Positions 31,228 to 49,901 of a stretch of DNA of 64,000 bases are shown here, one piece after another. The stretch comes from Parabacteroides distasonis (lineage in GTDB: Bacteria; Bacteroidota; Bacteroidia; Bacteroidales; Tannerellaceae), in contig NZ_SRYM01000017.1 of NCBI RefSeq assembly GCF_004793765.1, positions 1 to 64,000 of the forward strand. Direction: 5' to 3'. The first letter of the stretch is position 1; each line of letters opens with the position of its first letter. The translations under genes and the position numbers were made by a program. Under the pieces are notes generated by a model that saw only the letters and a program-made list of their open reading frames with translations, was not told where the DNA came from and made no database searches.

Positions 31228-31822
31228 AAGTCTCCGAGGAACTATAGTAAAAACACCAATCGAATCAATGCCCTCTCGTTAAAACTCTAAAATATTTTCA
31301 GCAAATATACTAATATTTATTTTAAAAACGCAAGTTATAGTAATAATACGTAACATATATATAGACAGAGCTAATTTTATAAAAACGTAAATCATCTCCT
31401 CTATGTCATGCGCCACTCATAAACGGCTTGGCTTCGTCAGGAAATATTATAAATAAAAAATAAGATTTCCCTTTTCTTGTCATTACCAACTAAACCATTG
31501 ATAATCAATATCAATAAAACCACAGTCTGCTTCCCTTATATGGAACAAATCTTCTCACTCTGTATTTACATTGAAAGCTTTTCCATCCTTTTTGGAATAT
31601 ATCTGACTTATTATAGTGTCATCACCTTTAACAAAAAGTTAATATTTAATTTATTTTCAACAACACTAATTAAATATATTTACATATTTACATTCTCCTT
31701 TTGTAGCTGTTTCATATCTTGAAAAATCATTAGAAAGAGGCAAATATTACGTATTTGGGGTATGCCTTGACAAAAACAGGGAAAAGTAATTTGGGAATAA
31801 GAACATAGTTCCTCGGAGACTT
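31228..31822. repeat. Candidate invertible promoter segment 1 (595 bp)
   Basis: Perfect 18-bp inverted repeats bound the segment: AAGTCTCCGAGGAACTAT at 31228-31245 and its reverse complement at 31805-31822. The left repeat is 53 bp before the susC start. Inside, no gene is convincing, but a good promoter (31302-31333) points at susC. Inversion would turn this promoter away and silence locus 1. The repeat shares AGTCTYnnnnGAACY with the pairs at 39131/39301 and 49728/49883. Confidence 0.75.
31302..31333 (-). promoter_or_regulatory. susC promoter inside segment 1
   Basis: Minus-strand TTG at 31331-31333, 21 bp, then TATATTTG at 31302-31309. It predicts a start near 31295 and a leader of about 120 nt that crosses the left inverted repeat. 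Orientation is toward susC in this assembly. Confidence 0.65.
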
Positions 31823-31947
31823 GAACAATAAAATATACAAACGAAGGCTCATAAACGCATAAAAATACAGCCACATCAAATAGGACACATATGCGCCCCC
31901 TATACAATTGAGCCTTCCTTTTGGATAAAAGTATTATGGGCAGTAGT

Positions 31948-32057
31948 TTGTCTATTTATATGATATAATCTTTCCACCTATGTGATACGATCTTTTCACA
32001 AGTATGAAAAGATCGTATCACATAGGTGGAAAGATCTCTTCACAGATATGAAAAGAT
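31948..32057. repeat. Array of 22-bp units with a perfect 31-bp hairpin
   Basis: Four clear 22-bp units begin at 31970, 31992, 32014 and 32036, each starting with C and ending GAT, with CAC near the front and a TATG/TGTG-like core (for example CTTTTCACAAGTATGAAAAG). A weak unit lies at 31948. Units one to three also form a perfect dyad: 31968-31998 pairs with 32005-32035 around a six-base loop. The array lies 28 bp downstream of the last gene of locus 2 and could end transcription or protect the mRNA 3' end, but no U run follows it. Confidence 0.75.
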
Positions 32058-32084
32058 CAGATTATGCGATGCTTGCTTATACTA

Positions 32085-33002
32085 TCATTTCACTTCTACC
32101 ACAATCATTACAGGAAAATGATCAGATGGTGTACGGGCAACATATTTCTGCCTGGAAACTTCTTTGGGGAAATTAGCGCTCTGCTCTTTCTCCGCACTTT
32201 CTTTCGCTCTCGAACGGTATGTATCCGTCAAGACACCATACTTTTTTACATCAAACTCTTTCGTAAGGAATAAATGATCGATACGACTATCCGTTTTGCG
32301 GTCCGCATGGAAACCATTAAATGTGCCGTTGGGTACATATCGGAAATCCGCTATCTGATAAGAATCCCGCATAATACCGGAATTATCCAACAGTAGATAA
32401 GATTCATTGTGTTGATCCACATTAAAGTCTCCTGTCAAGATAGCCGGTAACTTCTCTGGAAATTCCTTCACTTTCTTAAGGATAAGTTTAGCACTTTCCG
32501 CACGGGCTTGTACCCCTACATGATCCATATGTAAGTTAAAAAACAAGAAAGTAAAACCAGTTTGCCTATCCCGAAATTTACCCCATGTGCAAATACGGGG
32601 AAGAACGGCATCCCATCCCTTATTGGGGCGATCGGTTATCGTAGACAACCAAAAATCCCCATGATCCAGCACCTCAAACTTCTCCTTACGATAGAATATG
32701 GCGGAGTATTCCCCGGCTTGCTTACCATCATCACGTCCTACCCCGATATAATCATAACCGGGCATCGCATTCTTAAGATCTTGCAATTGATGATACTTAC
32801 CTTCTTGAGTTCCGAAAATATCAAAACCGTGAAACTGTATCAACTGAGCGATGTACGGATAACGTTGCCCCCAACCATTACCATTTGTCGAGTCACCCGC
32901 ATTTGCGTTACGCAAATTATAAGTAGCGACCACCATAGACTCCGCCTGCAACACAAACACGGAGCAAAGGACAAATAAGAAAGAATAAATTAGCTTCTTC
33001 AT
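32085..33002 (-). CDS. Secreted endonuclease/exonuclease/phosphatase-fold enzyme (copy 2)
   Basis: The 305-residue protein has a signal peptide (FLFVLCSVFVLQAES). Its four-layer EEP fold is shown by VVATYNLRNAN (metal-site Asn), GTQEGKYHQL (metal-site Glu), NLHMDHVGVQARAESA (catalytic His/Asp), LTGDFNVD (Asp/Asn) and the C-terminal SDHFPV (Asp-His). These are the complete Mg2+-dependent catalytic positions. The superfamily hydrolyses phosphodiesters or phosphomonoesters in nucleic acids, inositol phosphates and lipids. In a SusC/SusD operon a phosphorylated glycan or phospholipid headgroup is a reasonable substrate, by inference. It lies 38 bp after its paralogue and is the last gene of locus 2. 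Confidence 0.85.
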   Translation of the reverse strand: MKKLIYSFLFVLCSVFVLQAESMVVATYNLRNANAGDSTNGNGWGQRYPYIAQLIQFHGFDIFGTQEGKYHQLQDLKNAMPGYDYIGVGRDDGKQAGEYSAIFYRKEKFEVLDHGDFWLSTITDRPNKGWDAVLPRICTWGKFRDRQTGFTFLFFNLHMDHVGVQARAESAKLILKKVKEFPEKLPAILTGDFNVDQHNESYLLLDNSGIMRDSYQIADFRYVPNGTFNGFHADRKTDSRIDHLFLTKEFDVKKYGVLTDTYRSRAKESAEKEQSANFPKEVSRQKYVARTPSDHFPVMIVVEVK

Positions 33003-33039
33003 ATCTTTACAATTATATAAAACATTCTAATCCGTAAAC

Positions 33040-33882
33040 TTAAAATTCAGCCTCAATCATAATCGGGAAATGGTCTGAAGGAAAATGACCGTATTGGAAC
33101 TCATTCAACGTACCATATTTATTCACGTGAATATTCTTGGTAACGAAAATGTAGTCAATTCGATTCTTCATCGGAGCATTCGAATTAAATTGATTTGTCG
33201 TTCCTACCGTCCCATAGGGCGGTGTTTTTGAGATTTCCCGTGAGTCCAACAGTAAACCATCGGATTTCAGTATTTGTATAGGCTCAGAATCCGGCGTACC
33301 ATTAAAATCACCTACACAGATAGCAGGGGAATCCCCCGCTATCTTTTTAATATTAGCCAACATTATCAAAGCAGACTCATGACGGGCCACCTTACCGATA
33401 TGGTCAAAATGAACGCTGAAGAAATAAAATTCCTTTCCCGAAACCTTATCCTTCAACTTCGCCCAAGAACAAACCCTCCGGCATTGCGCATCCCAGCCAA
33501 AAGAAGGCTTATCCTGTGTCTCCGACAGCCAGTAATTTCCCGAGTCCAATAATTTAAACCGATCTTTCTTAAATAAGACCGCGGCATGTTCTCCAGCCTC
33601 TTTTCCATCATCCCGGCCTACACCGACATACGTGTACGTACCATCTTTCACTAAATCTTGTACTTGGTGAATCAATCCTTCTTGAATTCCAAAGACATCA
33701 AAGTCATGAAAATGTACCAACGACACGGCCATATCCTTCCGATGCGTCCAAGAATCATCCTTATCTCCGTCATTATCATATCGCAGGTTAAAACTACCCA
33801 CGTTCAACTGACATTTCTGCTGCCCGAATATTCCGGAGCAGAAGCTAAATAAGGAAATAAATACTATAACTAGATTTCTCAT
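33040..33882 (-). CDS. Secreted endonuclease/exonuclease/phosphatase-fold enzyme (copy 1)
   Basis: This 280-residue paralogue of the next gene downstream has a signal peptide (IVFISLFSFCSGIFGQQ) and the same catalytic set: VGSFNLRYDND, GIQEGLIHQV, VHFDHIGKVARHESA, CVGDFNGTPDSEP and SDHFPI. The open frame starts at 33906, overlapping the susD end, but the ATG at 33882 gives a proper signal peptide and a 17-bp gap to susD, so it is preferred. Two EEP enzymes side by side suggest either two related phosphoester bonds in one substrate or recent duplication with specialisation. Confidence 0.85.
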   Translation of the reverse strand: MRNLVIVFISLFSFCSGIFGQQKCQLNVGSFNLRYDNDGDKDDSWTHRKDMAVSLVHFHDFDVFGIQEGLIHQVQDLVKDGTYTYVGVGRDDGKEAGEHAAVLFKKDRFKLLDSGNYWLSETQDKPSFGWDAQCRRVCSWAKLKDKVSGKEFYFFSVHFDHIGKVARHESALIMLANIKKIAGDSPAICVGDFNGTPDSEPIQILKSDGLLLDSREISKTPPYGTVGTTNQFNSNAPMKNRIDYIFVTKNIHVNKYGTLNEFQYGHFPSDHFPIMIEAEF

Positions 33883-33899
33883 ACTATTCTTACTTTTAA

Positions 33900-35663
33900 T
33901 TACCAACCCGGATTCTGTTTCAAATCAGGATTCTTCTGAATTGCCGCCGCCGGGATCGGATAATAATATTGACGATCATCATCATACCAGATCCTAGGAT
34001 CGTTATCAGACCAAGTGAGGTTTCCATATGTACCCTGTGTCAACCCTTGTTGGGTATCATCCCCTACTGATATCGGCGTACAACTAGCCGGTAAATTCTC
34101 CGGTTTACTACCGATATAGAACACGACATCCATTGTACCGTCATGGTCAAGATCCATCGGTTCATTCAATTTCGGGACATAAATACCCGTCCAACGCATA
34201 GTCATCAATTTACCTAACTTCCAACGCTTGATATCCGAGAAACGGAATCCCTCCAAAGCAAGTTCAATAGAACGTTCCCTGCGGATTTCCAATAAGACGG
34301 GATCTGAGATATTAGGGAAATAAGTATTCTGAAGATAAGTATCCACCTTCACCGGCTTAGCATTTAATCCTCCCGTAATACCGGCGCGGGCACGTAAAGC
34401 TCCAACTGTCTTGCTCCAATCCTGATCACTCAATGTACCCAATTCCGCTTTGGCCTCCGCATAATTCAACAGCACCTCCGCATAACGGAAAAGAGGTATA
34501 GCGTTTGTATTCAAGGCCCCAGCGTCATAATGAGTAGCATCCAACGTATACTTAATCGGCTGATAACCGGTAAATGTATAGCCATTGAAATTCGGAGCGG
34601 CAGGTTCCCCGTCTCTCTGATAACCCGGAGTACGAATTGTTTGCGCTAAACGCATATCACGATCTTGGCATTCATCATAGAACAACATTGTCTCATATCC
34701 CGGACGATCCGTAAATGGAGTTCCATCGATACTCAAAAATGTGTTGACAAACGTACGAGTCATGCTAAAACGAGAGCCGTAGGTACCCGATGTCCACCAC
34801 CAATTCGCATCACCTAGTTTACCTAGAGTTACGTCACAACAGCTAGCAAGCATTACTTCGCTCGTGATCGGCGTATCACTGATGAATATAGCACGCATCG
34901 AACCATCTGTTCCCGCACCTGTATATAAAGAATGACCAGATTCTGCCATCACGGTTTCAGCAGCGTTAACAGCCTCTTGGAACCACTTATTCGCTGTATC
35001 GGCCAATCCCAATTCCGTATGATACTTACGAAAAGAACCTTCAAACAGGCAAATACGGGATTTCAAAGCGTAAGCCACCCACTTCGTCACCAAAGATCCC
35101 GTACCATCACTCGCACGAGTAATATGTTCGCACGCAAAATCCAAGTCTTCCAAAACTTTGTCCATCACGAATGTTCTGGGATCACGCTCATCATACAGCT
35201 TCTCGTCATCAATACTCAACGATTTATCTACCCAAGGCACATCTCCAAAACGGAGTACTTTCTCATAATAGAAATAAGCACGGAAAAAGCGGGCCAATCC
35301 GATATAATTATCACGTACGGACTCATCTAGCTGATCACTCACGCAATTCTCAATGAAATAATTCAAATTACGTAAGTTTTTCCAATCATCGGAAGACCAG
35401 CCCGTAGCGACCTCAGCCGAATAAGCCCCATCTCTCAAAAAAGAATCGAAACTTGTTACCGCACCATAATCACACATCGCATCTTTCTTATACCCATTAC
35501 TGATAGAAGGCAAAATATCATAAAAGGAATAAGAATATGTCTGAAGTCCTTTTTCATTATTAAATATAGATTCCTTGTCTATTTCCGATTTTGGAGACTC
35601 ATCCATCGAACAAGCACCCAATAACAAGCAAGCCGATATAAAAGAATATACTAGTTTTTTCAT
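33900..35663 (-). CDS. SusD/RagB-like nutrient-binding lipoprotein (locus 2)
   Basis: The 587-residue protein has a lipoprotein signal (SFISACLLLGACSMDE) followed by the SusD N-terminal pattern and TPR-like helices (YIGLARFFRAYFYYEKV). The C-terminal domain contains RRERSIELALEGFRFSDIKRW split over the conserved family signature, and ends NPDLKQNPGW, the usual SusD C-terminus. It would bind the locus-2 ligand at the cell surface and cap the SusC barrel. It begins 10 bp after the susC stop and is followed by two EEP enzymes. Confidence 0.9.
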   Translation of the reverse strand: MKKLVYSFISACLLLGACSMDESPKSEIDKESIFNNEKGLQTYSYSFYDILPSISNGYKKDAMCDYGAVTSFDSFLRDGAYSAEVATGWSSDDWKNLRNLNYFIENCVSDQLDESVRDNYIGLARFFRAYFYYEKVLRFGDVPWVDKSLSIDDEKLYDERDPRTFVMDKVLEDLDFACEHITRASDGTGSLVTKWVAYALKSRICLFEGSFRKYHTELGLADTANKWFQEAVNAAETVMAESGHSLYTGAGTDGSMRAIFISDTPITSEVMLASCCDVTLGKLGDANWWWTSGTYGSRFSMTRTFVNTFLSIDGTPFTDRPGYETMLFYDECQDRDMRLAQTIRTPGYQRDGEPAAPNFNGYTFTGYQPIKYTLDATHYDAGALNTNAIPLFRYAEVLLNYAEAKAELGTLSDQDWSKTVGALRARAGITGGLNAKPVKVDTYLQNTYFPNISDPVLLEIRRERSIELALEGFRFSDIKRWKLGKLMTMRWTGIYVPKLNEPMDLDHDGTMDVVFYIGSKPENLPASCTPISVGDDTQQGLTQGTYGNLTWSDNDPRIWYDDDRQYYYPIPAAAIQKNPDLKQNPGW

Positions 35664-35673
35664 GTCTCAAGAT

Positions 35674-38600
35674 TTAAAAAGTTACTGATACACCTAAGCT
35701 TATGCTTCGCATTTGAGGATAACTATTACCATCACCACTGCCTCGTTTCCCGTTCAAGCCAGACTTCATATCCGCATCCGTCAAGTCCGGGTCCGAACCA
35801 TAGATATTTGTCACATCCAAATCACGGGTATGTTTATACAAGGGAGACCAGCACCACAAATTCTCCGCCGAGATATAAACCCGGGCATTTTGAAGCATGA
35901 TCTTCGAAATCCATTGTTTGGGTAATGTATAACCAAATTGCAGATTCTTCAAACGGATATAAGCCACATTCTGCAAGTAACGAGTCTGTTTCGTATCTCT
36001 AATAGATGTATTATAACCCGCATAACGAGGCAAATAAGCGCCTTGATTATCCTCAGTCCAATAATTATCGACATGCCATGTCGGTAGATTATTATACGGA
36101 CGATTATATTGTCCCCAGAAAATACATTCCGAACTAGGATACCAATCCTGCTTTCCTACACCTTGGAAGAAGGCTGATATAAAGAAGTTATTCCAATCAC
36201 CGCTTAGGTTAATACTATAAGCAAAACGGGGTAAGCTATTACCTATCACCTTCAAATCCCCATGATCATCAACCCGGTTCGTTCCATAATCGATTGCACC
36301 GTTCCCGTCTTGATCCTTTAGCTTCACGTCTCCCGGATACCAAATATTTTTGGAAGATGACTTGATTAATTTCTGGGTAGCATGATTATCGATATCCGCT
36401 TGGTCTTTAAATAAGCCCTCGGTCTCGTATCCCCAAATCTCACCGACACGCATACCCTCATAGTAATCATCCAGATACTTATTCTCATTATTATAACGAT
36501 CTATGGTTGAAATATAATCAGACAGAGTACCCTTGATCTCATAATTAAACTGTTTGCTAGCCAGCTCAAAATGATCACGCCAAGTCAATGTGATTTCCCA
36601 GCCTTTCGTTGTCATATCCGCATAGTTACCTTTTGGGGAAGCGGCACCGAAAATCTCAGGGAGCGTCTTACCGACCGTGTACATATCCGTAGTCTTACGG
36701 ATGTAGTAATCGCCGGAGAAACGGAAACGATTGTTCAACATACCAAAGTCAAGTCCTACGTCAGTTGTCGTAGCAGTCTCCCAAGTAAGTCCGCTTGGCA
36801 TAACGGCAGGTGCGCTGGTATACTTATTCAACGCTCCATTCAATACCCGATCGGAAGTCTTGATGCTTAAAAGCTCAAGGAAACTATACGGGTCAACATT
36901 ACCATTACCCAGTGAACCATAAGAAGCCCTGACTTTCATATCCGAGAAGATTTGTTCATTCACCCGCCAGAACGGCTCCTCCGAGATTCTCCAACCCGCC
37001 GATACAGATGGGAAGAATGCCCATTGCTGATCTGTCAGGAATTTCGAGGAACCATCATAACGGCCGTTCACTTCCAACAGATAACGATCCTTAAACGCAT
37101 AATTCAAACGGAAGAAACCACCGGCAACCCGCCAACGGTTATATTTACCGGATGTAGTGATAGCGTCACCCAACGCCAAATTGATGTTATCCGTATCATC
37201 AAATAACAATCCATTCCGCTGAACCTCTAGGTTCTTATATTGAGACTGCTCATAATTATAACCGATCATACCTTTAAAATAATGCGCCTCCGCAAACGTA
37301 TCCTCATAATCGGCATAAATATTAGTAGCAATATAATCAGTCTTACCGGTCGTTTCTTTTAAATCATTGTATTTCTCGCTCAACAGCAAACTCTCACCTT
37401 CCACTTTGCTATAAGGAACCGGGACACGGCGTTGCGTCTTATTATTATCCGTATTCCTAAATGTAAAATCACCCCTTACATGCAACTTGTTGTTTAAGAA
37501 TGATGTCGTAAAGCTAGTCGTATTCCGTAATACCTTATTATTCGTATCAATGCCGTTCTTGCCATATATGAAATCACCTATCGTATAAGCGGCCGCAAAA
37601 GACAGGCTTCCATCCGGATTGAAAATAGGCTGGCAAGGATGTCCCTCATCCGATATATTACGCCAGATCGAACCACCCTCACCGACATTCATCGGGTTAT
37701 GATAATCCATATTCGAGAATTCCATGTTATTCTCTACTTTCAACCAATCAAACAGCTGGATAGAACCTTTCGCACGTAAATTCATCGTTTTGTAATCGTC
37801 CGTATTATAACGGAACAAACCATCATATCCATAGAAACGGCCGGATATATAATAATTTAATTTACCATTACTTCCTGTCAACGATAGATTATGGTCCTGC
37901 GCAAACGTATTCTTCTTATATAAAGCATCGTAATAATCCTCATTTCCGTAATAAACATACTTGCCGTTAGCATCTTTCTCTACTTCCGAGGTAATACCTT
38001 GTTCTTTCCGCAACCTAAAATCTTCCAGCCAACCAAGAGAGAAGTCTTGGGTCTTATTAATGTTCTTCGGATCTGCCGAATAATTGTTCCATGCGTGATA
38101 AGCCTCATAGAAACGTTCGGCATACATATATCCATCCGTCACCACATCGGGAACCGTAGCCGGGCGTTGCAATGAGAAATTACCCGTATACGTAATAGAG
38201 GTCTTATCTTTAGCCGGTTCTTTTGTCGTAATCAATACCACGCCAAACGTACCCCGGGCACCATAAATAGCGGCAGAGGCCGCATCCTTCAATACAGACA
38301 CGCTAGCGATATCATTTGGATTCAACATAGAGGGATCCCCCTCAACACCATCGATCAAAACCAAGGCATCCCCGCCTTGACCAATAGAGGTCGTACCACG
38401 CACGTTATAACTAGCCGTACGGGTCGGCTTACCATCCGTCAATTGAATATTCAAGTTCGGGATAGAACCTTGCAACATCTGGGTAGCGTTCGATACGGAA
38501 CGGTTCTCAAAAACCTCGCTCGTCACTTGTTCCACGGCACCCGTTAAGTTTACTTTCTTTTGAGTACCATAACCTACAACCACGACTTCATCTAATTTTT

Positions 38601-38955
38601 GAGTATCCTCATGAATAGAAATGACCAGATTATTCTTATTTCCTACCGGTACCTCTTGAGCTACGTAACCAATATAAGAGATTTGAAGTATCGAATTCGG
38701 AGTTACTTCGATGGAGAAATTACCATCAATGTCCGTGATCGTTCCATTCGTAGAACCTTTCACTACCACATTGGCGCCGATGATAGGTTCGCCTTTCAAA
38801 TCTGTAACTACACCGGTCACTTTTCTTTGTTGCTGTGCTTCTGGCAAAGCCTCTATATCATGACTATTCGCACACAAGGCCATTGGAGTATTTACGCTCG
38901 GGAATAATGATGCGCAAAACAAAGCCTTGAAGAAAAAATGCTTGATATTACTCAT
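35674..38955 (-). CDS. SusC/RagA TonB-dependent outer-membrane transporter (locus 2)
   Basis: The 1093-residue protein starts MSNIKHFFFKALFC with a signal peptide. Its parts in order are a carboxypeptidase-regulatory-like domain (GVVTDLKGEPIIGANVVVKG), the TonB box region LDEVVVVGYGTQKK, a plug (MLQGSIPNLNIQL, VRGTTS), and a barrel ending SISLGVSVTF. No STN domain is present and no sigma/anti-sigma pair belongs to the operon. Its leader and first codons (ATGAGTAATATCAAGCA) match those of the locus-3 susC (ATGAGTAACATCAAGCA), so the two share ancestry at their 5' ends. Candidate switch segment 39131-39318 lies upstream. Confidence 0.92.
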   Translation of the reverse strand: MSNIKHFFFKALFCASLFPSVNTPMALCANSHDIEALPEAQQQRKVTGVVTDLKGEPIIGANVVVKGSTNGTITDIDGNFSIEVTPNSILQISYIGYVAQEVPVGNKNNLVISIHEDTQKLDEVVVVGYGTQKKVNLTGAVEQVTSEVFENRSVSNATQMLQGSIPNLNIQLTDGKPTRTASYNVRGTTSIGQGGDALVLIDGVEGDPSMLNPNDIASVSVLKDAASAAIYGARGTFGVVLITTKEPAKDKTSITYTGNFSLQRPATVPDVVTDGYMYAERFYEAYHAWNNYSADPKNINKTQDFSLGWLEDFRLRKEQGITSEVEKDANGKYVYYGNEDYYDALYKKNTFAQDHNLSLTGSNGKLNYYISGRFYGYDGLFRYNTDDYKTMNLRAKGSIQLFDWLKVENNMEFSNMDYHNPMNVGEGGSIWRNISDEGHPCQPIFNPDGSLSFAAAYTIGDFIYGKNGIDTNNKVLRNTTSFTTSFLNNKLHVRGDFTFRNTDNNKTQRRVPVPYSKVEGESLLLSEKYNDLKETTGKTDYIATNIYADYEDTFAEAHYFKGMIGYNYEQSQYKNLEVQRNGLLFDDTDNINLALGDAITTSGKYNRWRVAGGFFRLNYAFKDRYLLEVNGRYDGSSKFLTDQQWAFFPSVSAGWRISEEPFWRVNEQIFSDMKVRASYGSLGNGNVDPYSFLELLSIKTSDRVLNGALNKYTSAPAVMPSGLTWETATTTDVGLDFGMLNNRFRFSGDYYIRKTTDMYTVGKTLPEIFGAASPKGNYADMTTKGWEITLTWRDHFELASKQFNYEIKGTLSDYISTIDRYNNENKYLDDYYEGMRVGEIWGYETEGLFKDQADIDNHATQKLIKSSSKNIWYPGDVKLKDQDGNGAIDYGTNRVDDHGDLKVIGNSLPRFAYSINLSGDWNNFFISAFFQGVGKQDWYPSSECIFWGQYNRPYNNLPTWHVDNYWTEDNQGAYLPRYAGYNTSIRDTKQTRYLQNVAYIRLKNLQFGYTLPKQWISKIMLQNARVYISAENLWCWSPLYKHTRDLDVTNIYGSDPDLTDADMKSGLNGKRGSGDGNSYPQMRSISLGVSVTF

Positions 38956-39056
38956 TTTAAAACGTTTTTTATAATATATAGATTTTAACTAGATAACAAA
39001 TGAAGACAGGTAGGCATACCGCCTTCTTCTCTTTTTACATTCATTCCGCATATTTA

Positions 39057-39086
39057 CATAGGCTTCTCTTTTTTTAAGGTTAACTA
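39057..39086 (-). promoter_or_regulatory. Conserved susC upstream block (locus 2)
   Basis: On the minus strand TAGTTAACCTTAAAA (39072-39086) is followed after 8 bp by GCCTATG (39057-39063). The identical 15-mer and GCCTATG, 7 bp apart, lie at 48010-48038 upstream of the locus-3 susC. This may be an alternative (ECF) promoter or a regulator site. Confidence 0.55.
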
Positions 39087-39130
39087 CTCTATTTACATTC
39101 TCTCATCTCAAATAAAAAACAAGACAAACG

Positions 39131-39318
39131 AGTTCCGGGAAGACTATGATTTTCAATAGAAAGAATTTAGGACATAAAGCCTGCTAGATCAATAGATAAC
39201 CGGAATCCGGATAGAATATGATTGATCTAGTAAAAAGATTAGAAAGAAAAAATAGGATTATAATAGTGTACGGGAAAATGATTTATGTATCATAAAGAAC
39301 CATAGTCTTCCCGGAACT
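39131..39318. repeat. Candidate invertible segment 2 (188 bp)
   Basis: Perfect 18-bp inverted repeats bound the segment: AGTTCCGGGAAGACTATG at 39131-39148 and its reverse complement at 39301-39318. Within it a second dyad, CTAGATCAAT/ATTGATCTAG, spans 39184-39230 around CCGGAATCCGG. No gene fits. It lies 175 bp before the locus-2 susC and matches the AGTCTYnnnnGAACY site consensus of the other two pairs. No exact TAnnTTTG box lies inside; the best promoter is just outside at 39390-39421, so inversion may change leader or operator rather than promoter direction. Confidence 0.7.
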
Positions 39319-39389
39319 AAGTCAGCAAGCAACCTTTAAAAAAGTAAACTATATGGATAGACTATGTCTTTTCTTAAGATCTAATGGCA

Positions 39390-39421: not shown

Positions 39422-39444
39422 CACTAGATACATTTTTCAACAAA

Positions 39445-40675: not shown

Positions 40676-40693
40676 ACATTCTACTTTTAGACG

Positions 40694-41848
40694 TTACAGG
40701 GTTGGGGTATAAATAGCTACCCCAACTTTAGAATCCGCACAACCATAATACAAGTACCATTTATCTTTAAAGAATACCAACCCTTCAATAAATACAGTAC
40801 CATCTACATACTGACCACTCTTCTCGAAATCAGCCATAGGTTGGAAAAATGGAACATCCAAACGAGCGATCGCTTTATAAGGATCGTTCAAATCAAACAA
40901 TACTTGCCCCGCACTGTAAGTACCTGCGTTAAAACGAGGATCTCTCCTATCATCCTTTTGGTTCTTACCGTTATAAAGTAATAAGATCCCTTTATCAGTC
41001 ATGATAGCAGGAGGTCCGCACTCTGTCAAGGCACTATCAAAATAATTATCACGAGGATAAATTAAGCCCAACAATTCATTCTGATCATTTAATACCGGAG
41101 TCCAAGTTATCAGATCGTCAGAGGTCGCAGCCGCAACCATCTGTTCCCCCCAATACATCAAGTATTTACCATTTACTTTCGTTATAACTTGTTTACCATC
41201 CACCACTTTTGTTACGATAGAACCGGACTTACATGCCATATCCTTAAAACGTTCATCATAAGCTTTCGCAAAAGCCGGGCCATGCTTCTCCCACGTCAAT
41301 AAATCACGGGAAGTAGCGACAGACAAACGAGGAACCTCCCGATTCCATGCGGTATATATCATAACATAAAGCCCATCCTCCGTAACCGCTACACGAGGGT
41401 CCTCACAACCTCCTTGCCATTCAAATTCTTTCATATTATCCTCGGCGGGAAACATTACAGGAGTAGCATGCCGTTCCATCGTAACCCCATCTACACTCTC
41501 TGCCAATCCGATCCGAGAGGTACGTTTTCCGATACCCGTGGCTGAATTATCTTCCGCACGATACAAAACACAAATCTTCCCGTCTTTTACCACTGCCGCA
41601 GGATTGAACGTATCACTCTCTTCCCATCCTACCGGAGCCTTACGCATCGGACAATCAAACTTACTTTCCGGATTCGGAGTAATCACAGGATTCACTCCTT
41701 CCGGACGTACAAAATCACCCAAAGCCCATACGGGAAGATTATTTGTGTTGTTAGCGATCACCTCTGTCGGTACCTGTTTCGCCTTATTGCCACATGCCAA
41801 CAAGCAAACACATAAGAACGATACAGGTATTAGATTTAAATAATTCAT
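40694..41848 (-). CDS. GH130 family lipoprotein (mannoside phosphorylase/mannosidase type)
   Basis: The 384-residue protein has a lipoprotein signal (VSFLCVCLLACGNK). The five-bladed propeller contains NPAAVVKDGKICVLYRAED near residue 75, RIGLAESVDG and GGCEDPRVAV, where the Asp is the expected catalytic acid, followed by VATSRDLLTWEKHGP and KYLMYWGE. GH130 members cleave beta-mannosides with phosphate or water; secreted ones in gut Bacteroides act on N-glycan core or yeast mannan termini, but the subfamily here cannot be fixed. It lies in locus 3 between the DUF3823-like lipoprotein and the frameshifted paralogue. It is probably displayed on the outer membrane. Confidence 0.82.
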   Translation of the reverse strand: MNYLNLIPVSFLCVCLLACGNKAKQVPTEVIANNTNNLPVWALGDFVRPEGVNPVITPNPESKFDCPMRKAPVGWEESDTFNPAAVVKDGKICVLYRAEDNSATGIGKRTSRIGLAESVDGVTMERHATPVMFPAEDNMKEFEWQGGCEDPRVAVTEDGLYVMIYTAWNREVPRLSVATSRDLLTWEKHGPAFAKAYDERFKDMACKSGSIVTKVVDGKQVITKVNGKYLMYWGEQMVAAATSDDLITWTPVLNDQNELLGLIYPRDNYFDSALTECGPPAIMTDKGILLLYNGKNQKDDRRDPRFNAGTYSAGQVLFDLNDPYKAIARLDVPFFQPMADFEKSGQYVDGTVFIEGLVFFKDKWYLYYGCADSKVGVAIYTPTL

Positions 41849-41874
41849 ATATACTATTTTAATTTACAAATTAA

Positions 41875-42570
41875 CTACAAAATCACTTCCATTATCTGAG
41901 AGTAATTAATTACCCCTTCTGTTTTCGCTCCTATACGGACATAGATCTTATTACCATTCGCTTTAACCTTATACTCATTATCTAAGAATGTTTGATCAGC
42001 TACCAAGTCAAATGTAATCGTTCCAGACAATTCATTCACTGTAACTTTCCCCGCTTGGTTCGCTCCACCATCATCTACACCCGGAGCAAAGTTCCAATAC
42101 CCATATACCTCATCCGTTGTATATGAAGACCGGGTCTTGCTCACTTGATAATTGATAGAAACTTTTTTCCCTGAAACAGAAGCCGAGGCTTCAATCCTTG
42201 CATACGGAATCACTGGGATATTTACTTCTGTTTGTCCTTCCACGGTTGCCCGGACCTCTTCCGAAGTTACGAAAGGTCCTTCTACCGTAATCAAGTAATC
42301 GCAATTAAATATACGAGAATTATTAAAGGTACCATCTTGTTTCGCATAGAAATCCACTGTTTTAGTAGCCCCCGTACCTTGTTCCATCAACTTTATAATC
42401 ACACCTGTAGAGCCCTGTACAGGCAGAGGAACAGGCTGATTTGTCTCAGCATCTAATATCGTACCATAAACCCCTCCATCCGGAGCGTCATAATTATCCA
42501 ACTCATTTACACAAGAGCACATCAGGCATAAAGACATCAATGATAAAAAGCATATATTTATAAATCTCAT
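41875..42570 (-). CDS. DUF3823-like surface lipoprotein (locus 3)
   Basis: The 231-residue protein has a lipoprotein signal (SLMSLCLMCSCVNELDNYD). The sequence GGVYGTILDAETNQPVPLPV opens a carboxypeptidase-regulatory-like beta-sandwich, and a second beta domain follows (RIEASASVSGKKVSINYQV). This two-domain layout and the position directly after susD are those of DUF3823 proteins, presumed surface glycan-binding partners. It lies 20 bp after susD and 26 bp before the GH130 gene. No catalytic motif. Confidence 0.8.
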   Translation of the reverse strand: MRFINICFLSLMSLCLMCSCVNELDNYDAPDGGVYGTILDAETNQPVPLPVQGSTGVIIKLMEQGTGATKTVDFYAKQDGTFNNSRIFNCDYLITVEGPFVTSEEVRATVEGQTEVNIPVIPYARIEASASVSGKKVSINYQVSKTRSSYTTDEVYGYWNFAPGVDDGGANQAGKVTVNELSGTITFDLVADQTFLDNEYKVKANGNKIYVRIGAKTEGVINYSQIMEVIL

Positions 42571-42589
42571 AACTCTAATACATTTTAAA

Positions 42590-44446
42590 TTAATTTGTAT
42601 AACCGGGATTCTGTACCAATTTCGGATTCGAGTTCATGTCATCCGATCCGATCTTCACATAATAATTCTTTTCCAAGAATAAACGCACCTGTTTCGGAGG
42701 CTTATTTCCACGTTCAAATACATACTTTTGAGTGCGAGTATCCAGCCATGGATAAAGGGCGGAACCTCGGAAACCATTCAAGCCCCCCTGCGCTACATCC
42801 AAATGAGCAATTCGCCAACGACGCATATCCCAATAACGATGCCCCTCAAATGCCAACTCAACCTTACGCTCGTGACGTACTTTTTGGATATCGATGGATG
42901 TCTGTTTAGCGATTCCCGCACGCTCACGAATAGCGTTGATAGCATTCAAAGCCTCTTGCTCCTTTCCTCCCATCTCTACGGCAGCCTCCGCTAGATTCAA
43001 ATACATCTCGGCCAAACGGAAGACCGGTCTAGGAGTCTCCGACTTACCCATATTTAGGTCTGTCAATGTCTCATCCCAGAACTTTTTCTGATAGAAGCCC
43101 GTTTTAGAAGGGTCACCCGCATCTGCTCCACCATCCTTACCTGATACATTATACGTAATCCCGGTAGATGGATCCACATAGTTTTCTACCGCATCTGGTT
43201 GCTTGGTCGCTTGAATCTTTTCGCCATTCGAATTAATGATACCTCTTCTCCATTCTACGATATCACCCTTACAAGGAGAACCCGGCAAATAAACAGAGGC
43301 GAACAATCTCGGATCTTTATTCGCAAATAACTCCATCGGATCATCGAAAGCACGTGCCGAGCCATCCGGATTGGTTAATACCAAGGTACCCTCCGAACCA
43401 TCTAAATATTCATATTCCTCAACCATTTCGAGCGTAGGAGCCGCACCACAGCCCCAGCCTCCGGCACGGAACGAAAAAGGAGCGTTACGTTTATCAAAGT
43501 CATGTCCTTTTCCTCCAGCCACATTATATTGCTTTTGGAAAATATATTCACCGTTATCACCATTACCTTTCAAAAACATATCACAATAGTTCTGAGCTCG
43601 ATCATCCGGTTTTTTCAGATATAAAGCATAAACTCCTAAGTCCATAACTTTTTTAGAAGCATCATATGCTATTTGATAAAAGTGATTCGCCTTCTCGGTA
43701 GGAATCCCCACGATACCATCCAATTGAACCGTACCATATTTAGCGATAGATCCGGCATATAAAGCGGCACGAGAACAAAGAGCCAGAGCAGCCCCTTTAT
43801 CGGCTCTATACTTTCCGGAAGCATCCCGTTGTAATGGTAAGTTTTCTGCGATAGCATTACACTCGTCAATAATAAAGTTATACACCTCTTCCTCTTTTGA
43901 ACGAGGAAGTTGCAAAGATTCTAATTGATCCGCCCCATTATATTCTTGAGGCTCCATTATTATAGGAACTCCACCATAGCGTTTTACCAACGTAAAATAA
44001 TGCCAAGCACGGATAAAACGAACCTCGGCTTCCAAAGAGGCCTTTTCTGCCTCATCCAACAATGCTTCTTTCAGCTGAGCAAGGAAATCATTACAATTAC
44101 GAATGCCTTTATATGGGTCCGCAAAGGTGCCAAACAGATCATCAGCATAGGCATAAGTCGCATTACCATTATCAAATACCGGATCTTTTTGGAAAGAGCC
44201 TTGCGCCTCATCCGACATCGTTGTCAAGTTCACTAATTGATAATCGGCATAATGTCTATAATTAAAATCTTCCAATTGCATCTTATCATACAAGTTCACC
44301 AATACACCATTAATCAATTTAGGATCTTCCCAAACTTGGTCCGGCGTGATCAAATCAAACGGTTCTTTATCCAAATAATCACAACTCGTGAAGGAAAGAA
44401 ACGCAATGCCACAAATCAAACTATTAAAATATTTTATCGTATTCAT
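42590..44446 (-). CDS. SusD/RagB-like nutrient-binding lipoprotein (locus 3)
   Basis: The 618-residue protein has a lipoprotein signal (CGIAFLSFTSCDYLDKEP). TPR-like helices are seen at AEVRFIRAWHYFTLVKRYGG, and the C-terminal family signature runs RHERKVELAFEGHRYWDMRR with the terminus NPKLVQNPGYTN. It should capture the locus-3 glycan and lid the SusC barrel. It follows susC after 13 bp and precedes the DUF3823-like gene. The neighbouring GH130 enzymes point to a mannose-containing glycan. Confidence 0.9.
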   Translation of the reverse strand: MNTIKYFNSLICGIAFLSFTSCDYLDKEPFDLITPDQVWEDPKLINGVLVNLYDKMQLEDFNYRHYADYQLVNLTTMSDEAQGSFQKDPVFDNGNATYAYADDLFGTFADPYKGIRNCNDFLAQLKEALLDEAEKASLEAEVRFIRAWHYFTLVKRYGGVPIIMEPQEYNGADQLESLQLPRSKEEEVYNFIIDECNAIAENLPLQRDASGKYRADKGAALALCSRAALYAGSIAKYGTVQLDGIVGIPTEKANHFYQIAYDASKKVMDLGVYALYLKKPDDRAQNYCDMFLKGNGDNGEYIFQKQYNVAGGKGHDFDKRNAPFSFRAGGWGCGAAPTLEMVEEYEYLDGSEGTLVLTNPDGSARAFDDPMELFANKDPRLFASVYLPGSPCKGDIVEWRRGIINSNGEKIQATKQPDAVENYVDPSTGITYNVSGKDGGADAGDPSKTGFYQKKFWDETLTDLNMGKSETPRPVFRLAEMYLNLAEAAVEMGGKEQEALNAINAIRERAGIAKQTSIDIQKVRHERKVELAFEGHRYWDMRRWRIAHLDVAQGGLNGFRGSALYPWLDTRTQKYVFERGNKPPKQVRLFLEKNYYVKIGSDDMNSNPKLVQNPGYTN

Positions 44447-44459
44447 AAAAGTTCCACTA

Positions 44460-47400
44460 TTAGAATGTTAAATTAATACCAAAATTATAAGACTTCATTT
44501 GCGGGTAATATTGTAAATTCGTCTGTGAGTTCTCCGGATCCATGTACTTCATCATTCCACCTCTAGTTATAGTCAAAGGATTATAACTATTCACATAAAT
44601 CCTGACATTCTCCAATCCGGCTTTCGCTAACCAAGTCTTCGGTAAAGTATAACCTAACTCTATTGTTTTTAATCGTAGATAATTCGCCTTCAATAAGCTC
44701 CATGTACTAGTCTCATTATTCAAACTAAAACCAGTAGGGCGTACAGCCGGCATCTCACCTGAAATCCATACGCTATTTACATCCGAGGGATTTTCTCTAT
44801 GCCAACGGTCTTCCCAGAAGACCACACCATTACCTAATCCCTGTTGAATAAACGGGTCTAAGAATGTCTCAAACACTTTCACCTCATGTCCAGCGGCACC
44901 TTGGAAAAATGCGGTAAAATCAAAGCCATTCCAGTTTACCGATAAATTCAATCCATAATACATACTCGGTGTATCGCTATGCCCAACAGGTTTCTTATCT
45001 TTATCATCAATAATTCCATCCTCATTGATATCAGCGTATTTAATATCTCCGGGCAATAAAGACTTGTTGCCATTACCGTCTTGGATAGGCGCATTCAGTA
45101 TCTCCTCAAAACTCTGGAACTGTCCTAATGCCTCATATCCCCAAGTGATACTTTTATATCGATCATTCGTGTTATTCCTCCAATTCTCATACATATTACC
45201 GGAAACAGCACGTTCTACATACCGATTCAGTTCGCGGGTAGTCGTAAAGTTCGCACTTACGCTATAAGACACCTTACCTATCGTATGACGATGTGTAAGT
45301 ACAAGCTCAAAACCTCTTGTTTTATCCGAATTTAGGTTTTCTTGTGGTAAGTTCTTTCCAAATGAAGTCGGCAAAGTCAATAAACGATTCGCTAATAATC
45401 CTTTACGGCGACGCTCAAAGTAATCGAACTCCGCAGAGATCAAGCCATTTAATACAGATGCTTCAAAACCGATATTGGCCGTTGTAGATTCATACCACGT
45501 TAAATTAAGATTAGGCAATCCTTTATCTTCCGCACCATTAGAAAGTCCGTCAGAGCCCAATACATAATTACCCGATGGATACTTATAACCACTTAAATAC
45601 TGAAAAGCAGCAAAATCACCTTCATCGCCCACCTTTCCATAAGATCCACGGATCTTTAAATTATCTATGAACGATACATTTTCCTTGAAGAAAGCCTCTT
45701 GTGAAACTCTCCATCCCAGAGAAACAGCCGGGAAAAATCCCCAACGACTATCGCTCGCAAACTTATAAGAACCATCATAACGAAAACTTACCTCAGCCAG
45801 ATATTTACTATCATACGCATAATTCACACGCCCCACCAAACCTTCATGAGCAGAAACTTCCGCATTTCCATCATTACTCTTATTCGTATTATCACCCGCA
45901 TTCATTTGGTCAAGAGCACTGATGTAAAATTGACGATAGGCAGAAAACCAGTCCTTACGATAATTCCTCATTTCCCACAATAACAAAGCGCCGACATCAT
46001 GTTTACCGAATGTATTATGATAATTGACAGAGTATTGCTGGTTAGGCATAAAAGAATTCTCATTCTTCTCGTCCAACGTAGAAAGCGCATGTCGTGTTAT
46101 TTTATTATAAGTTTCATTTACCGCATCATACTGGTATTCATAGTATTCCTTGAACCATTTCTTCTCAAACAGATTATTATAATCGTATGATAGCAATGCC
46201 TTTACCGATAAGCCTTTTACCCAAGGTAGATCCCAATTGATAGTCAATGCCCCATTAAACTCCCGACGGTCTCTCTTATCGTATCCAACTTCACTAGCGT
46301 TGATTACCTGCATCGGATTAGGCTCATTACCTGCGGTATTGTAATAAGGAGGCGTATTATTAGCATATACTGTTTTTAACGGGCTAGACAAATATACATC
46401 TTTGAAGACACTTTGGTCATATGGTTTATTCCGAGTATCCAAACGACCACTAAGTTGTAAACCTACCGTTAAGCCTTTCGTGATCTCCGCATTAACATTA
46501 GAGCGTACATTATATTTACGATAGTTTTGATCTCCCGAAACCCAAATACCGTCTTGACTTGTATAGCCTAAAGAAAAATAATATTTAACTTTCTCCGTTC
46601 CTCCGGAAACATTCAAGTTATGATACATTTGAGGAGCCGATTTCCGAGTTATCTCTTTCCACCAGTTCGTACTAGGATAAGCGGGATCTGCACCCGTCCT
46701 ATATTTTTCAATCTCTTCTTCAGAATAAGGAGCCTGTACTCCAATATTCATCTGCGCCTCATTCCACAAGGTCGCATATTGATACGCATTGTATAATTCA
46801 GGGAACCGAGTCACCTGTTGGAGGCCATAATAACCATTATATGAAATTTTTGGTTTGCTGATCTCTCCCTTCTTGGTTGTTACTAAAATAACGCCATTCG
46901 CCCCCTTAAAACCATAGACAGCGGCAGAAGCATCTTTCAAGATACTAATCGACTCTATATCATTTGCATCGATCTGAGTAAAATCACGCTCCACACCATC
47001 TACAATCACCAATGCGCTTCCAAAGCCACGGATATCGATACTAGCCGCATCATCACCGGGAGCACCACTTCTCTGTACCGCCCGTAGACCGGGTAACTTA
47101 CCAGCCAAAGCATTCGTCACATTCGGAGTCTTGACAGAAACAATGTCTTTCGTCTGCAACGAAGCTACGGAACCAGTCACGGACGCACGCTTTTGTAGGC
47201 CATATCCTACAACTACGACCTCATCCAGCTTTTGAGTATCTTCCCGTAAAAAGGCGTTCAACACAGATTTTCCGGCAATCGCCACGTCTAATGTATTATA
47301 ACCAATATAGGATATTTGCAAGGTTGCCTGCGGAGAGGAGACTTCCAATGAATAATGACCATCCAAATCTGTTATCGTACCATTCGTCGTACCCCTTTCA

Positions 47401-47798
47401 ACCACGTTTGCACCAATCACCGGCTCCCCGCTCTGATCCATGATAGTACCGGTAATCACTCGTTTCTGTTGTTGGGTAACAGATGTATTTTTAGAAGACA
47501 AAACAATCTGGCTATTATCTTTTAAGACATAAGTAATGGATGTTTGCCTAGAGATCTGTTCTAAGATATTTTGTATACTGGCATTCTTGACATCCACTGA
47601 TATACGGGTACTCAACCCGGGTAGATCATCATTATAAAAAAATCGGTAGTCGCTTACCTTTTCTATTTCCTTAATCACCTCACGCATCGTTTGGTTCTTA
47701 AGAGTAAGCGTAATTTGAGCCATTGCGGATAAACCAGAAGAGGCCAACGCAAATGAACATAGGATCGCTCGTAAAAGAATTTGCTTGATGTTACTCAT
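44460..47798 (-). CDS. SusC/RagA TonB-dependent transporter with STN signalling domain (locus 3)
   Basis: The 1112-residue protein has a signal peptide and then an STN domain at about 28-100 (LTLKNQTMREVIKEIEKVS, YRFFYNDDLPGLS, ASIQNILEQISRQTSITYVL). The carboxypeptidase-regulatory-like domain (GTIMDQSGEPVIGANVVERG), TonB box region LDEVVVVGYGLQKR, plug and barrel follow. The STN domain contacts a FecR-type anti-sigma factor, so substrate binding can activate the ECF sigma encoded upstream. The gene is 249 bp after fecR, not directly linked, and that gap holds a hairpin and the conserved block at 48010-48038, so it likely has its own sigma-responsive promoter. Confidence 0.93.
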   Translation of the reverse strand: MSNIKQILLRAILCSFALASSGLSAMAQITLTLKNQTMREVIKEIEKVSDYRFFYNDDLPGLSTRISVDVKNASIQNILEQISRQTSITYVLKDNSQIVLSSKNTSVTQQQKRVITGTIMDQSGEPVIGANVVERGTTNGTITDLDGHYSLEVSSPQATLQISYIGYNTLDVAIAGKSVLNAFLREDTQKLDEVVVVGYGLQKRASVTGSVASLQTKDIVSVKTPNVTNALAGKLPGLRAVQRSGAPGDDAASIDIRGFGSALVIVDGVERDFTQIDANDIESISILKDASAAVYGFKGANGVILVTTKKGEISKPKISYNGYYGLQQVTRFPELYNAYQYATLWNEAQMNIGVQAPYSEEEIEKYRTGADPAYPSTNWWKEITRKSAPQMYHNLNVSGGTEKVKYYFSLGYTSQDGIWVSGDQNYRKYNVRSNVNAEITKGLTVGLQLSGRLDTRNKPYDQSVFKDVYLSSPLKTVYANNTPPYYNTAGNEPNPMQVINASEVGYDKRDRREFNGALTINWDLPWVKGLSVKALLSYDYNNLFEKKWFKEYYEYQYDAVNETYNKITRHALSTLDEKNENSFMPNQQYSVNYHNTFGKHDVGALLLWEMRNYRKDWFSAYRQFYISALDQMNAGDNTNKSNDGNAEVSAHEGLVGRVNYAYDSKYLAEVSFRYDGSYKFASDSRWGFFPAVSLGWRVSQEAFFKENVSFIDNLKIRGSYGKVGDEGDFAAFQYLSGYKYPSGNYVLGSDGLSNGAEDKGLPNLNLTWYESTTANIGFEASVLNGLISAEFDYFERRRKGLLANRLLTLPTSFGKNLPQENLNSDKTRGFELVLTHRHTIGKVSYSVSANFTTTRELNRYVERAVSGNMYENWRNNTNDRYKSITWGYEALGQFQSFEEILNAPIQDGNGNKSLLPGDIKYADINEDGIIDDKDKKPVGHSDTPSMYYGLNLSVNWNGFDFTAFFQGAAGHEVKVFETFLDPFIQQGLGNGVVFWEDRWHRENPSDVNSVWISGEMPAVRPTGFSLNNETSTWSLLKANYLRLKTIELGYTLPKTWLAKAGLENVRIYVNSYNPLTITRGGMMKYMDPENSQTNLQYYPQMKSYNFGINLTF

Positions 47799-47953
47799 TT
47801 TTAAGTGTTTTTTATATATTATATAAATAATAAAAGGTAACTTTACAAGATAAAATACATGGCAATAATCTGATAGATAGAGGCAACCCGCCAGTTGTCT
47901 TATCTTTTTAAACTTTATATGTCATGATTTTATACTTATAAAAACAATACATT

Positions 47954-47990
47954 GGGGGGACAGGTCTTTACCCTAAAGGAACTGTCCCTT
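47954..47990 (-). promoter_or_regulatory. Hairpin in the fecR-susC gap
   Basis: GGGACAG and CTGTCCC pair over 7 bp around an 18-base loop that includes CTTTACCCTAAAGG, itself able to pair. On the minus strand it is followed by CCCAATG, not a U run, so it is a weak terminator or an attenuator. It could lower read-through from sigma/fecR into susC. Confidence 0.45.
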
Positions 47991-48009
47991 TATTATTCTT
48001 TCTTTATAT

Positions 48010-48038
48010 CATAGGCATCATCATTTTAAGGTTAACTA
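48010..48038 (-). promoter_or_regulatory. Conserved susC upstream block (locus 3)
   Basis: TAGTTAACCTTAAAA at 48024-48038 and GCCTATG at 48010-48016 on the minus strand, the counterpart of 39057-39086. It lies between fecR and susC, where an autoregulated ECF sigma would be expected to act. Confidence 0.55.
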
Positions 48039-48047
48039 AAACTTATC

Positions 48048-49022
48048 TCATTTCTCTCTCAGTGTTATCGTATCGCCTTCCGATCCGTATAAAATTGGAG
48101 CGGTAAGACTTATAATCTCAAAGATGTTATCCAAGCTATTATTCTTTATAACCCCAGAAAAGCGATAACGTTTTATCCGCTCCGAATCAAATTTGACTTG
48201 TACGTTATACATCCGATTCAACAATACGGCTATATTCTCCAAAGTCTCACTCTCAAAAGCCAACTCATCATTTCTCCACATCCGGGCATACGACGAATTG
48301 GTAAGTCTTTCTACCAACAGCCTCCTACTGGCCTTATTGAAACGCACATGCTGATCTGGAGATAAAACCGCCATTTCATTTCCCGCAACAGCCCGGATAC
48401 TTCCTTCAAATAGGGTCGCCGTTAATTCTTTATCCTCATCATATGCCTTGACATTAAACGCCGTACCCAAAGCTTCCAGCTCCAAGTCTCCTGCCTTTAC
48501 GACAAAGCGATGCTTCTTATCTTTAGCGACCTCAAAATAGGCCTCACCGGACAGGAAGACTGCTCTTTCATCCTTCCCGTAATCTCCATCGTACGTAACA
48601 CGAGTATGCGAGTTTAGCCAAACTTTCGTTCCATCCGGCAGGGCCAAACTAGCACGTTGCCCCTTTTCCGCCGATACGATATATTCCTGTTGATTCCCAC
48701 CTACACCCCGTGTATATAAATGAGATCCGATTCCCAGACTCACACATAAAAGAATAACAGCCGCATACGACCACCACTTCCCGAAGGATCTTCTTTTAGG
48801 CGTTTTCATCCGGTTCTTGATTTGGTGGAACATCCGTCCTTGTATCTCCGCCGATAATTCTCTACCGGACACATCTTCCCATTTCCGCTTATAAAATGAG
48901 AATATCTCATCTTTCGAACGAACATTCATAAACCACCCCAGAAGCTCTTTTTCTTCTTCCGGTGAAGTACTGCCACTCATAAAGCGGTCCAACAAATCAA
49001 TATATCTATTATTTTTTGCCAT
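48048..49022 (-). CDS. FecR-family anti-sigma factor (locus 3)
   Basis: The 324-residue protein has a cytoplasmic N-terminal sigma-binding part (about 1-80, DLLDRFMSGSTSPEEEKELLGW). One transmembrane helix follows (WSYAAVILLCVSLGIGSHLY, about 84-103). The periplasmic FecR domain contains KGQRASLALPDGTKVWLNS and FLSGEAYFEVAKD, and the C-terminal STN-like domain ends NIFEIISLTAPILY. In the inactive state it holds the ECF sigma; contact with ligand-loaded SusC releases it. It lies 63 bp after the sigma gene and belongs with the STN-containing SusC downstream. Confidence 0.9.
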   Translation of the reverse strand: MAKNNRYIDLLDRFMSGSTSPEEEKELLGWFMNVRSKDEIFSFYKRKWEDVSGRELSAEIQGRMFHQIKNRMKTPKRRSFGKWWSYAAVILLCVSLGIGSHLYTRGVGGNQQEYIVSAEKGQRASLALPDGTKVWLNSHTRVTYDGDYGKDERAVFLSGEAYFEVAKDKKHRFVVKAGDLELEALGTAFNVKAYDEDKELTATLFEGSIRAVAGNEMAVLSPDQHVRFNKASRRLLVERLTNSSYARMWRNDELAFESETLENIAVLLNRMYNVQVKFDSERIKRYRFSGVIKNNSLDNIFEIISLTAPILYGSEGDTITLREK

Positions 49023-49085
49023 CGTATATATAGTATATCTTCGAGAGAAGGCATCCCCCTACAAGTTATTTGAAAAGACAAAGAT

Positions 49086-49664
49086 TTAACATTCATTAAT
49101 TAAAAACAATAATAGTGCAGCCAATAGACAATCGGAAGACAGCCGATCCCGCAAAAAACGTAAAGCCCTGTTTACCTGTGTCTCCACAGTCTTTTCGGAG
49201 ATAGAGAGGCGTTTCGCTATTTCTCTATATGATAAATGTTCATGACGGCTCAAACGAAATATCTCCCGACGTGATGGCGGTAATTCTTCTATCAAGCTAT
49301 TAATATATTCCCGTAAAGACTCCGCATCAATTCGCTCTTCCATAAGCGAATCAACATCTGATAGCTGTCGTTGTAGGCTTTCCGTCAGTTTCTCGGAGAG
49401 TAGCCGATTCTCTGTCTCTTTATAAACTAAGTTACGGGCGATGGTGAATAGATAGGCGTCAAAGTTTTGCTCCGCATCTATCGTCTCATGTTTCTCCCAA
49501 ATCTTAAGAAAAACGTTTTGAGTCAAGTCCTCTGCCATAGATTTTTCATATAGTAATGAGTAAATAAAATGATATACATGCTCATTATACTTCCAGAATA
49601 GGGCCTCAAAAGCCTTTTCATCCCCATTCTTCAGATCTATAAGCAAATGTTTATCCACTTTCAT
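49086..49664 (-). CDS. FecI-like ECF sigma factor (locus 3)
   Basis: The 192-residue sigma factor has region 2 (EKAFEALFWKYNEHVYHFIY, SMAEDLTQNVFLKIWE) and region 4 (LPPSRREIFRLSRHEHLSYR, EIAKRLSISEKTVETQVNRA). Length is usual for Bacteroidetes FecI-like sigmas. The open frame extends to a GTG at 49679, but the ATG at 49664 gives the standard start MKVDKHLLIDLKNGD and is preferred. With the anti-sigma and STN-type SusC downstream it forms a trans-envelope regulatory set. Its 5' flank carries candidate invertible segment 3, which could make the whole regulon phase variable. Confidence 0.9.
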   Translation of the reverse strand: MKVDKHLLIDLKNGDEKAFEALFWKYNEHVYHFIYSLLYEKSMAEDLTQNVFLKIWEKHETIDAEQNFDAYLFTIARNLVYKETENRLLSEKLTESLQRQLSDVDSLMEERIDAESLREYINSLIEELPPSRREIFRLSRHEHLSYREIAKRLSISEKTVETQVNRALRFLRDRLSSDCLLAALLLFLINEC

Positions 49665-49727
49665 ATTACATATATCCACTATATGGCTCTTATCCCCCTT
49701 GTGTATATTTGTAGTTCATATACATGA

Positions 49728-49901
49728 GTTCTGGTGAGACCACGTTAGTTTGTACGGATGATATGAATGATAAGATATAGATAATCAAGGAATAATTAAA
49801 TGACAGAAGTTCCAACAGTATTGGAAAGTTAAAGAGATGATAAACTATTGGATTGTTGTTTAGATATTTATAATATAAACAAAACGTAGTCTCACCAGAA
49901 C
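49728..49901. repeat. Candidate invertible segment 3 (174 bp)
   Basis: Inverted repeats of 19 bp, 18 matching, bound the segment: GTTCTGGTGAGACCACGTT at 49728-49746 and AACGTAGTCTCACCAGAAC at 49883-49901. There is no gene inside. A weak promoter toward sigma may lie inside on the minus strand (TTTA, 20 bp, TACTGTTG, 49813-49844). A better -7 box, TAACTTTG at 49908-49915 with TTTG 22 bp upstream, lies just outside and also points at the sigma gene. It is 64 bp upstream of the sigma start and carries the same site consensus as the other two pairs. Confidence 0.7.

Follow-up and report, generated by a model that had tools for sequence, protein, structure and literature searches.

Do the three pairs of short inverted repeats beside SusC/SusD-type uptake loci in Parabacteroides distasonis bound DNA segments that flip, do they stand alone, and which enzyme would act on them? 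SusC/SusD loci determine the glycans taken up by a gut bacterium, and their receptors are exposed to phages and immunity. The pairs lie in a 64,000-nucleotide stretch (contig NZ_SRYM01000017.1, positions 1 to 64,000; hereafter the window), for which a first-pass annotation had proposed three inverted-repeat switches. Its six site coordinates, arms and segment sizes (595, 188 and 174 bp) were all correct on recheck. The consensus it gave, AGTCTYnnnnGAACY, is present at the window sites but is too narrow genome-wide, where the form is AGTYY-N5-GAACT. Within the window, RGTCTYNNNNGAACY matches seven times against 0.13 expected, a number reached by 0 of 100 shuffles; the statement that no such site lies elsewhere in the window was inexact, as the seventh match (52474-52488) is unpaired and falls within a histidine-kinase open reading frame (ORF; 50779-53154). 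The arms of pair 2 reach 21 nt with one mismatch, and both sites of pair 3 deviate by one base from AGTYYN5GAACT, at one end each. The sites are also oriented differently, with GAACT inward at pair 1 and AGTCT inward at pairs 2 and 3.

The genome that holds the window (G000; 4.21 Mb in 177 contigs, the window's contig being C85) was searched for strict pairs, defined as two AGTYYN5GAACT sites with the same core, inverted and at most 3 kb apart. Of the 42 places where the pattern occurs, 16 combine into eight such pairs; when the site sequences were shuffled among the places, a mean of 0.09 inverted pairs arose. Same-core direct pairs of the strict pattern within 3 kb numbered zero. The looser pattern RGTYYYNNNNGRACY yielded four further matching-core inverted pairs (C91, C101a, C113 and C155), and AGTYYNNNNNRRACT at least two more, C101b and C111, among the matches listed. 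With the eight strict pairs and window pair 3 the total is nine, where a set of three had been described, and more off-consensus pairs may be present. As read from the sites, the cores are distinct in all nine, which bears out the earlier claim that the four central bases are the same within a pair and different between pairs.

The motif by itself is a poor guide. The first-pass annotation had counted many unpaired copies as a sign against switches, and in part they are there: 26 of the 42 places lie outside pairs, and in G000 the motif is no more common than its reversed control (51 match rows against 95). It is enriched over that control in G014 (93 against 59) and G002 (45 against 28). Counting single motifs was thus not useful in G000, and we take same-core inverted pairing, which is far above that of shuffled sites, as the signal. 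In a scan of viral contigs with the pair 2 site, 24 stretches matched, each with one site.

In seven of the nine cases the pair is at a SusC start or N-terminus, the C113 pair having one site within the susC 5' end. The remaining two are window pair 3 and a pair before a gene whose glycosyltransferase match is weak and falls short of the Pfam cut-off. Each window segment had been placed directly upstream of a SusC/SusD locus; this holds for pairs 1 and 2, but pair 3 precedes the gene for an extracytoplasmic function (ECF) sigma factor rather than SusC3, the order after it being ECF sigma, FecR, SusC3 and SusD3. Comparison with relatives is informative about the cores. That of pair 2 reads CCCG here and TCCG in G032, and for pair 3 the ACCA of G000 corresponds to ATCA in G004; in each case both arms have changed. 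Such matched changes fit recombination that requires matching cores.

Orientation and promoters

If the pairs bound invertible segments, then relatives may carry some of them the other way round. Two divergent SusC genes flank the C101a segment, whose interior is identical in the relative G004 (536/536) but inverted, between collinear flanks (992/1000 and 997/1000). Likewise, the C91 interior matches G004 at 155 of 165 positions when inverted, compared with 92 of 177 when collinear, and its flanks match at 917/1005 and 935/1002. Inversion is thus real for the class, and two pairs outside the window support the proposal of invertible segments ahead of SusC loci, in which the arms are common to all and the cores specific to each pair. 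Four pairs allowed a comparison with G004, and these are two of them; in the stretches compared, C101b (diverged), C113 (771 versus 1941 bp) and C155 (no match) fell outside the comparison. The left SusC gene of the divergent C101a pair (L032, 999-4201) is split into two overlapping ORFs of 494 and 620 aa; its G004 counterpart is a single ORF of 1067 aa.

The segment of pair 1 contains promoter-like boxes facing SusC1, with TATATTTG at -7 (31309, minus strand) and CTTG at -33, and their direction suggests that pair 1 is ON for SusC1 as assembled. The boxes of C101b and C111 also point to their SusC genes, and that of C101a points to the right-hand SusC in G000. The C91 box points away from SusC in G000 and toward it in G004. 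No TANNTTTG box was found inside pairs 2 and 3 in either direction; the promoter-like boxes of pair 3 lie beyond the segment, on its far side, at 49935 and 49915 (minus). Promoter inversion upstream of susC, as first proposed, is therefore plausible for one window pair, and from these boxes it appears likely for pair 1 only. At C113 we considered whether the far site could supply a different SusC N-terminus and rejected this. In that frame no methionine follows the last stop, so that inversion of the assembled form would leave the gene without its start.

SusC1 homologues offer a view of pair 1 across species. Among named genomes the closest is that of Parabacteroides faecis, at 93%, and a pair of the same consensus lies before or in the SusC start at 3 of 14 SusC1 loci: L081 (P. 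faecis), L073 (B. caecigallinarum) and L069 (a sheep Bacteroidaceae metagenome-assembled genome). No pair was found at the other 11, two of which (L071 and L082) lack DNA upstream of the start. Across 38 genus genomes, the pair 1 segment has no DNA relative except for a 39-base stretch, which resembles the C111 promoter region, and a repeat outside the pair.

As members of the class, pairs 1-3 would flip too. We regard a switch as probable at pair 1; pair 2 is less sure, and the case is weakest for pair 3. Several observations pull in the other direction. At pair 3 and at C111, G004 and G000 agree in orientation, a flipped copy of pairs 1, 2 or 3 was not seen among the genus genomes compared, and pairs 2 and 3 have the empty interiors described above. 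Pair 2 looks collinear with G032 when judged by eye, its interior aligning weakly. It is possible, although on balance unlikely, that certain pairs of the window, once invertible, have decayed or become locked and are now fixed, pair 3 being the foremost case. Pair 3 combines sites one base off the consensus with a segment free of promoter boxes and an unchanged orientation in G004, and what decay may look like can be seen on contig C112, where a lone site between FecR and SusC (L037, 5012-5026) carries the 15 bases of the C101b pair with no good inverted partner nearby, the best having 4 mismatches. However, where species differ in the core of pair 3, both arms carry the same change, which points to exchange until recently.

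A candidate recombinase

The recombinase had been predicted to be encoded elsewhere, and indeed the window's contig has none listed among its PF00589 matches, with all 49 of those in G000 on other contigs. The search proposed at the outset, for inverted pairs and a nearby tyrosine recombinase, gave both. The candidate, a 415-aa tyrosine recombinase (C101:29698-30942) with arm-binding, SAM-like and catalytic domains, is encoded at a distance of 4.9 kb from the C101a pair; contig coordinates place it between the C101a and C101b pairs. Residues R269, K296, H358, R361, H384 and Y393 are invariant wherever the alignment covers them (at least 12 of its 15 sequences) and are read as the catalytic set. 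At a threshold of E <= 1e-60 the candidate is matched in 25 of the 38 genus genomes, its own included, and in 20 of the 26 good genomes, with identities from 100 down to 48% and one copy per genome, except for two in G005.

Pair number tracks the presence of this candidate. Genomes that encode it have eight (G000), five (G002), seven (G004), four (G003) and 15 (G014) same-core inverted pairs, compared with one in G007 and none in G006, G016, G022 and G036, which make up five of the six good genomes without it. These ten genomes were chosen by hand, with G021 (without the candidate) and G011 left out, and are related, the counts being uncorrected for kinship; in the totals for G002 and for G014, a cluster of three sites enters twice. 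Across the ten genomes, direct same-core pairs number two, both within those clusters. Linkage agrees with co-occurrence. A pair at up to one mismatch lies on the same stretch in 10 of 19 candidate neighbourhoods (19 of the 25 genomes), and at L069 (3013-5216) a 47% homologue, a 385-aa ORF, sits inside an inverted segment between two SusC genes. From this co-occurrence and linkage, the C101 recombinase is the best candidate for the enzyme. Two further arrangements were seen: at L150 (15102-17100, in G002) three same-core sites near the candidate's match resemble a small shufflon, and G006, which lacks the candidate, carries one site with the 15 bases of the C101a pair.

The case for this enzyme meets several difficulties. 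The 25 matches include distant ones (48-58%), and 9 of the 19 neighbourhoods are without a pair. G007 has its one pair without the candidate, G036 gains one when two mismatches are allowed, and G032 (76% complete) has the pair 2 segment and no candidate match. The matches in G023, G017 and G003 contain one stop each, those in G023 and G003 coming before query residue 22 or 19 and thus before the likely start. Finally, co-occurrence was run for one candidate among the 49 recombinase matches of G000, and in related genomes.

The class could be truly invertible and yet be acted on by another tyrosine recombinase, or several, which we hold to be improbable. The many recombinase matches and the G007 pair leave room for such an enzyme, but it would have to account for a pair number that follows the C101 candidate and for that candidate's position near, or, as a homologue at L069, inside pairs. 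We do not prefer the six recombinases of 301-316 aa (L039-L044), as no AGTYY pair lies on the stretch around any of them, and five of them, all except L042, lie beside a GCTACTTGG.. repeat; judging from a published repeat, they would serve capsule loci. For 20 recombinases, NCBIfam gave no informative label, every match lying far under the curated cut-offs.

That the repeats are regulator-binding sites or stem-loops with no recombination is very improbable and, for the class, already refuted: the AGTYY-N5-RRACT site is a short palindrome, as in many operators, and pairs 2 and 3 lack internal boxes, but at two class pairs the interior, identical or nearly so in both genomes, lies in opposite orientations, and an operator has no need of cores that are free between pairs and matched within them.

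Taken together, these results fit a model in which the window pairs belong to a genome-wide invertible set that would give phase variation of SusC/SusD uptake loci. A tyrosine recombinase would recognise AGTYY half-sites around a 5-base spacer, and strand exchange between inverted sites with matching cores would flip each segment separately. Flipping pair 1 would turn SusC1 on or off through the internal promoter, and pairs 2 and 3 would act similarly. We consider it highly probable that the set is of this kind and switches SusC/SusD loci as Tsr0667 does in Bacteroides fragilis, with the C101 enzyme as the best candidate for the recombinase. A wider proposal, to which we give about even weight for and against, is that a single conserved recombinase is the genus-wide master switch of SusC/SusD loci in Parabacteroides, with one site type, three outputs, and loci kept apart by cores evolving in both arms. 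The outputs would be promoter flips (pair 1), an either-or choice at C101a between two SusC operons that diverge, and the swapping of 5' coding ends of SusC. With a candidate invertase, nine likely target pairs and two pairs in both orientations, one-enzyme control of Parabacteroides receptor diversity is now testable.

Sites and genes of the window

Table 1. Inverted sites, segments and neighbouring genes in the window. SusC, SusD, FecR and ECF sigma identities are Pfam matches.
Feature	Coordinates	Strand	Basis or position
Pair 1 left site, AAGTCTCCGAGGAACTAT	31228..31245	+	Motif scan
Pair 1 right site, perfect inverted copy of left	31805..31822	-	Motif scan
Pair 1 segment, 595 bp	31228..31822	.	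Between inverted sites
Pair 2 left site, AGTTCCGGGAAGACT	39131..39151	-	Motif scan, repeat comparison
Pair 2 right site	39298..39318	+	Motif scan, repeat comparison
Pair 2 segment, 188 bp	39131..39318	.	Between inverted sites
Pair 3 left site, one base off consensus	49727..49746	-	Motif scan
Pair 3 right site, one base off consensus	49883..49902	+	Motif scan
Pair 3 segment, 174-176 bp	49727..49902	.	Between inverted sites
SusC1 (TonB-dependent receptor)	27954..31175	-	ORF start ~50 bp from pair 1
SusD-like partner of SusC1	26422..27933	-	Pfam
SusC2	35674..38955	-	ORF start ~175 bp from pair 2
SusD2	33900..35663	-	Pfam
ORF for an ECF sigma factor, immediately downstream of pair 3	49086..49679	-	Pfam
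FecR-type anti-sigma gene	48048..49022	-	Pfam
SusC3 with STN domain	44460..47798	-	Pfam
SusD3	42590..44446	-	Pfam

The pair 2 segment contains a stable hairpin within 39180-39235, with a 10-bp stem and a z of -3.7; Rfam gave nothing at gathering scores in window positions 31000-50500. Pair 1 is adjoined on its outside by an intergenic repeat (31908-32090) with a self-complementary core at about 31968-32035. Used as a query, this repeat has 21, 19, 24 and 20 matches in G000, G004, G023 and G007, counts that include the query itself and both strands of the core. Two neighbouring genes of the endonuclease/exonuclease/phosphatase family lie downstream of SusD2 (32085-33906). At 39516-40675 a second GH130-like gene is apparently split into two ORFs, one of 224 aa that corresponds to the later part of the family and one of 168 aa without a family match.

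Comparison with known systems

The invertase Mpi of B. fragilis differs from the system here in being a serine enzyme that acts at other sites and on capsule loci rather than mostly SusC. Mpi is described as a single master invertase whose target promoters are many and scattered (PMC4747536, PMC12632263). In P. distasonis, capsule loci have invertible promoters flanked by the repeat GCTACTYRGNRAGTAGC, with the recombinase beside each locus (PMC12118408). The genus is apparently the same, and there too inverted repeats surround promoters; capsule-type repeats adjoin five of the six 301-316 aa recombinase genes of G000. In contrast, the window repeats are AGTCT..GAACT and not GCTACTYRGNRAGTAGC, and C85 has no PF00589 match listed. 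Numerous inversion sites have been reported for P. distasonis in general (PMC5903667), and in open-licence literature we recognised no description of these SusC sites in Parabacteroides.

In B. fragilis, one tyrosine recombinase, Tsr0667 (BF0667), carries out shufflon-type inversions at three SusC/SusD clusters and acts on nine other regions (PMC4747536). Here, as there, pairs of one consensus are scattered over the genome (eight strict, nine with pair 3). Seven of the nine are at SusC, with segments before the gene as well as pairs in SusC 5' coding ends, and inversion is seen at C101a and C91 relative to G004; the genus is different. The Tsr0667 consensus is reportedly AGTYYYN4GDACT (Nakayama-Imaohji 2009), a form that was not found in the open-licence literature searched. 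Although the window consensus was at first not recognised, pairs 1 and 2 fit this form; pair 3 is one base off, and C101b and C111 do not fit it fully. The switch reading of the class is well supported and ordinary in kind, the switch type being known from B. fragilis; the candidate invertase and the two pairs in both orientations make it more useful. The system works like the Tsr0667 regulon and is probably a Parabacteroides member of it.

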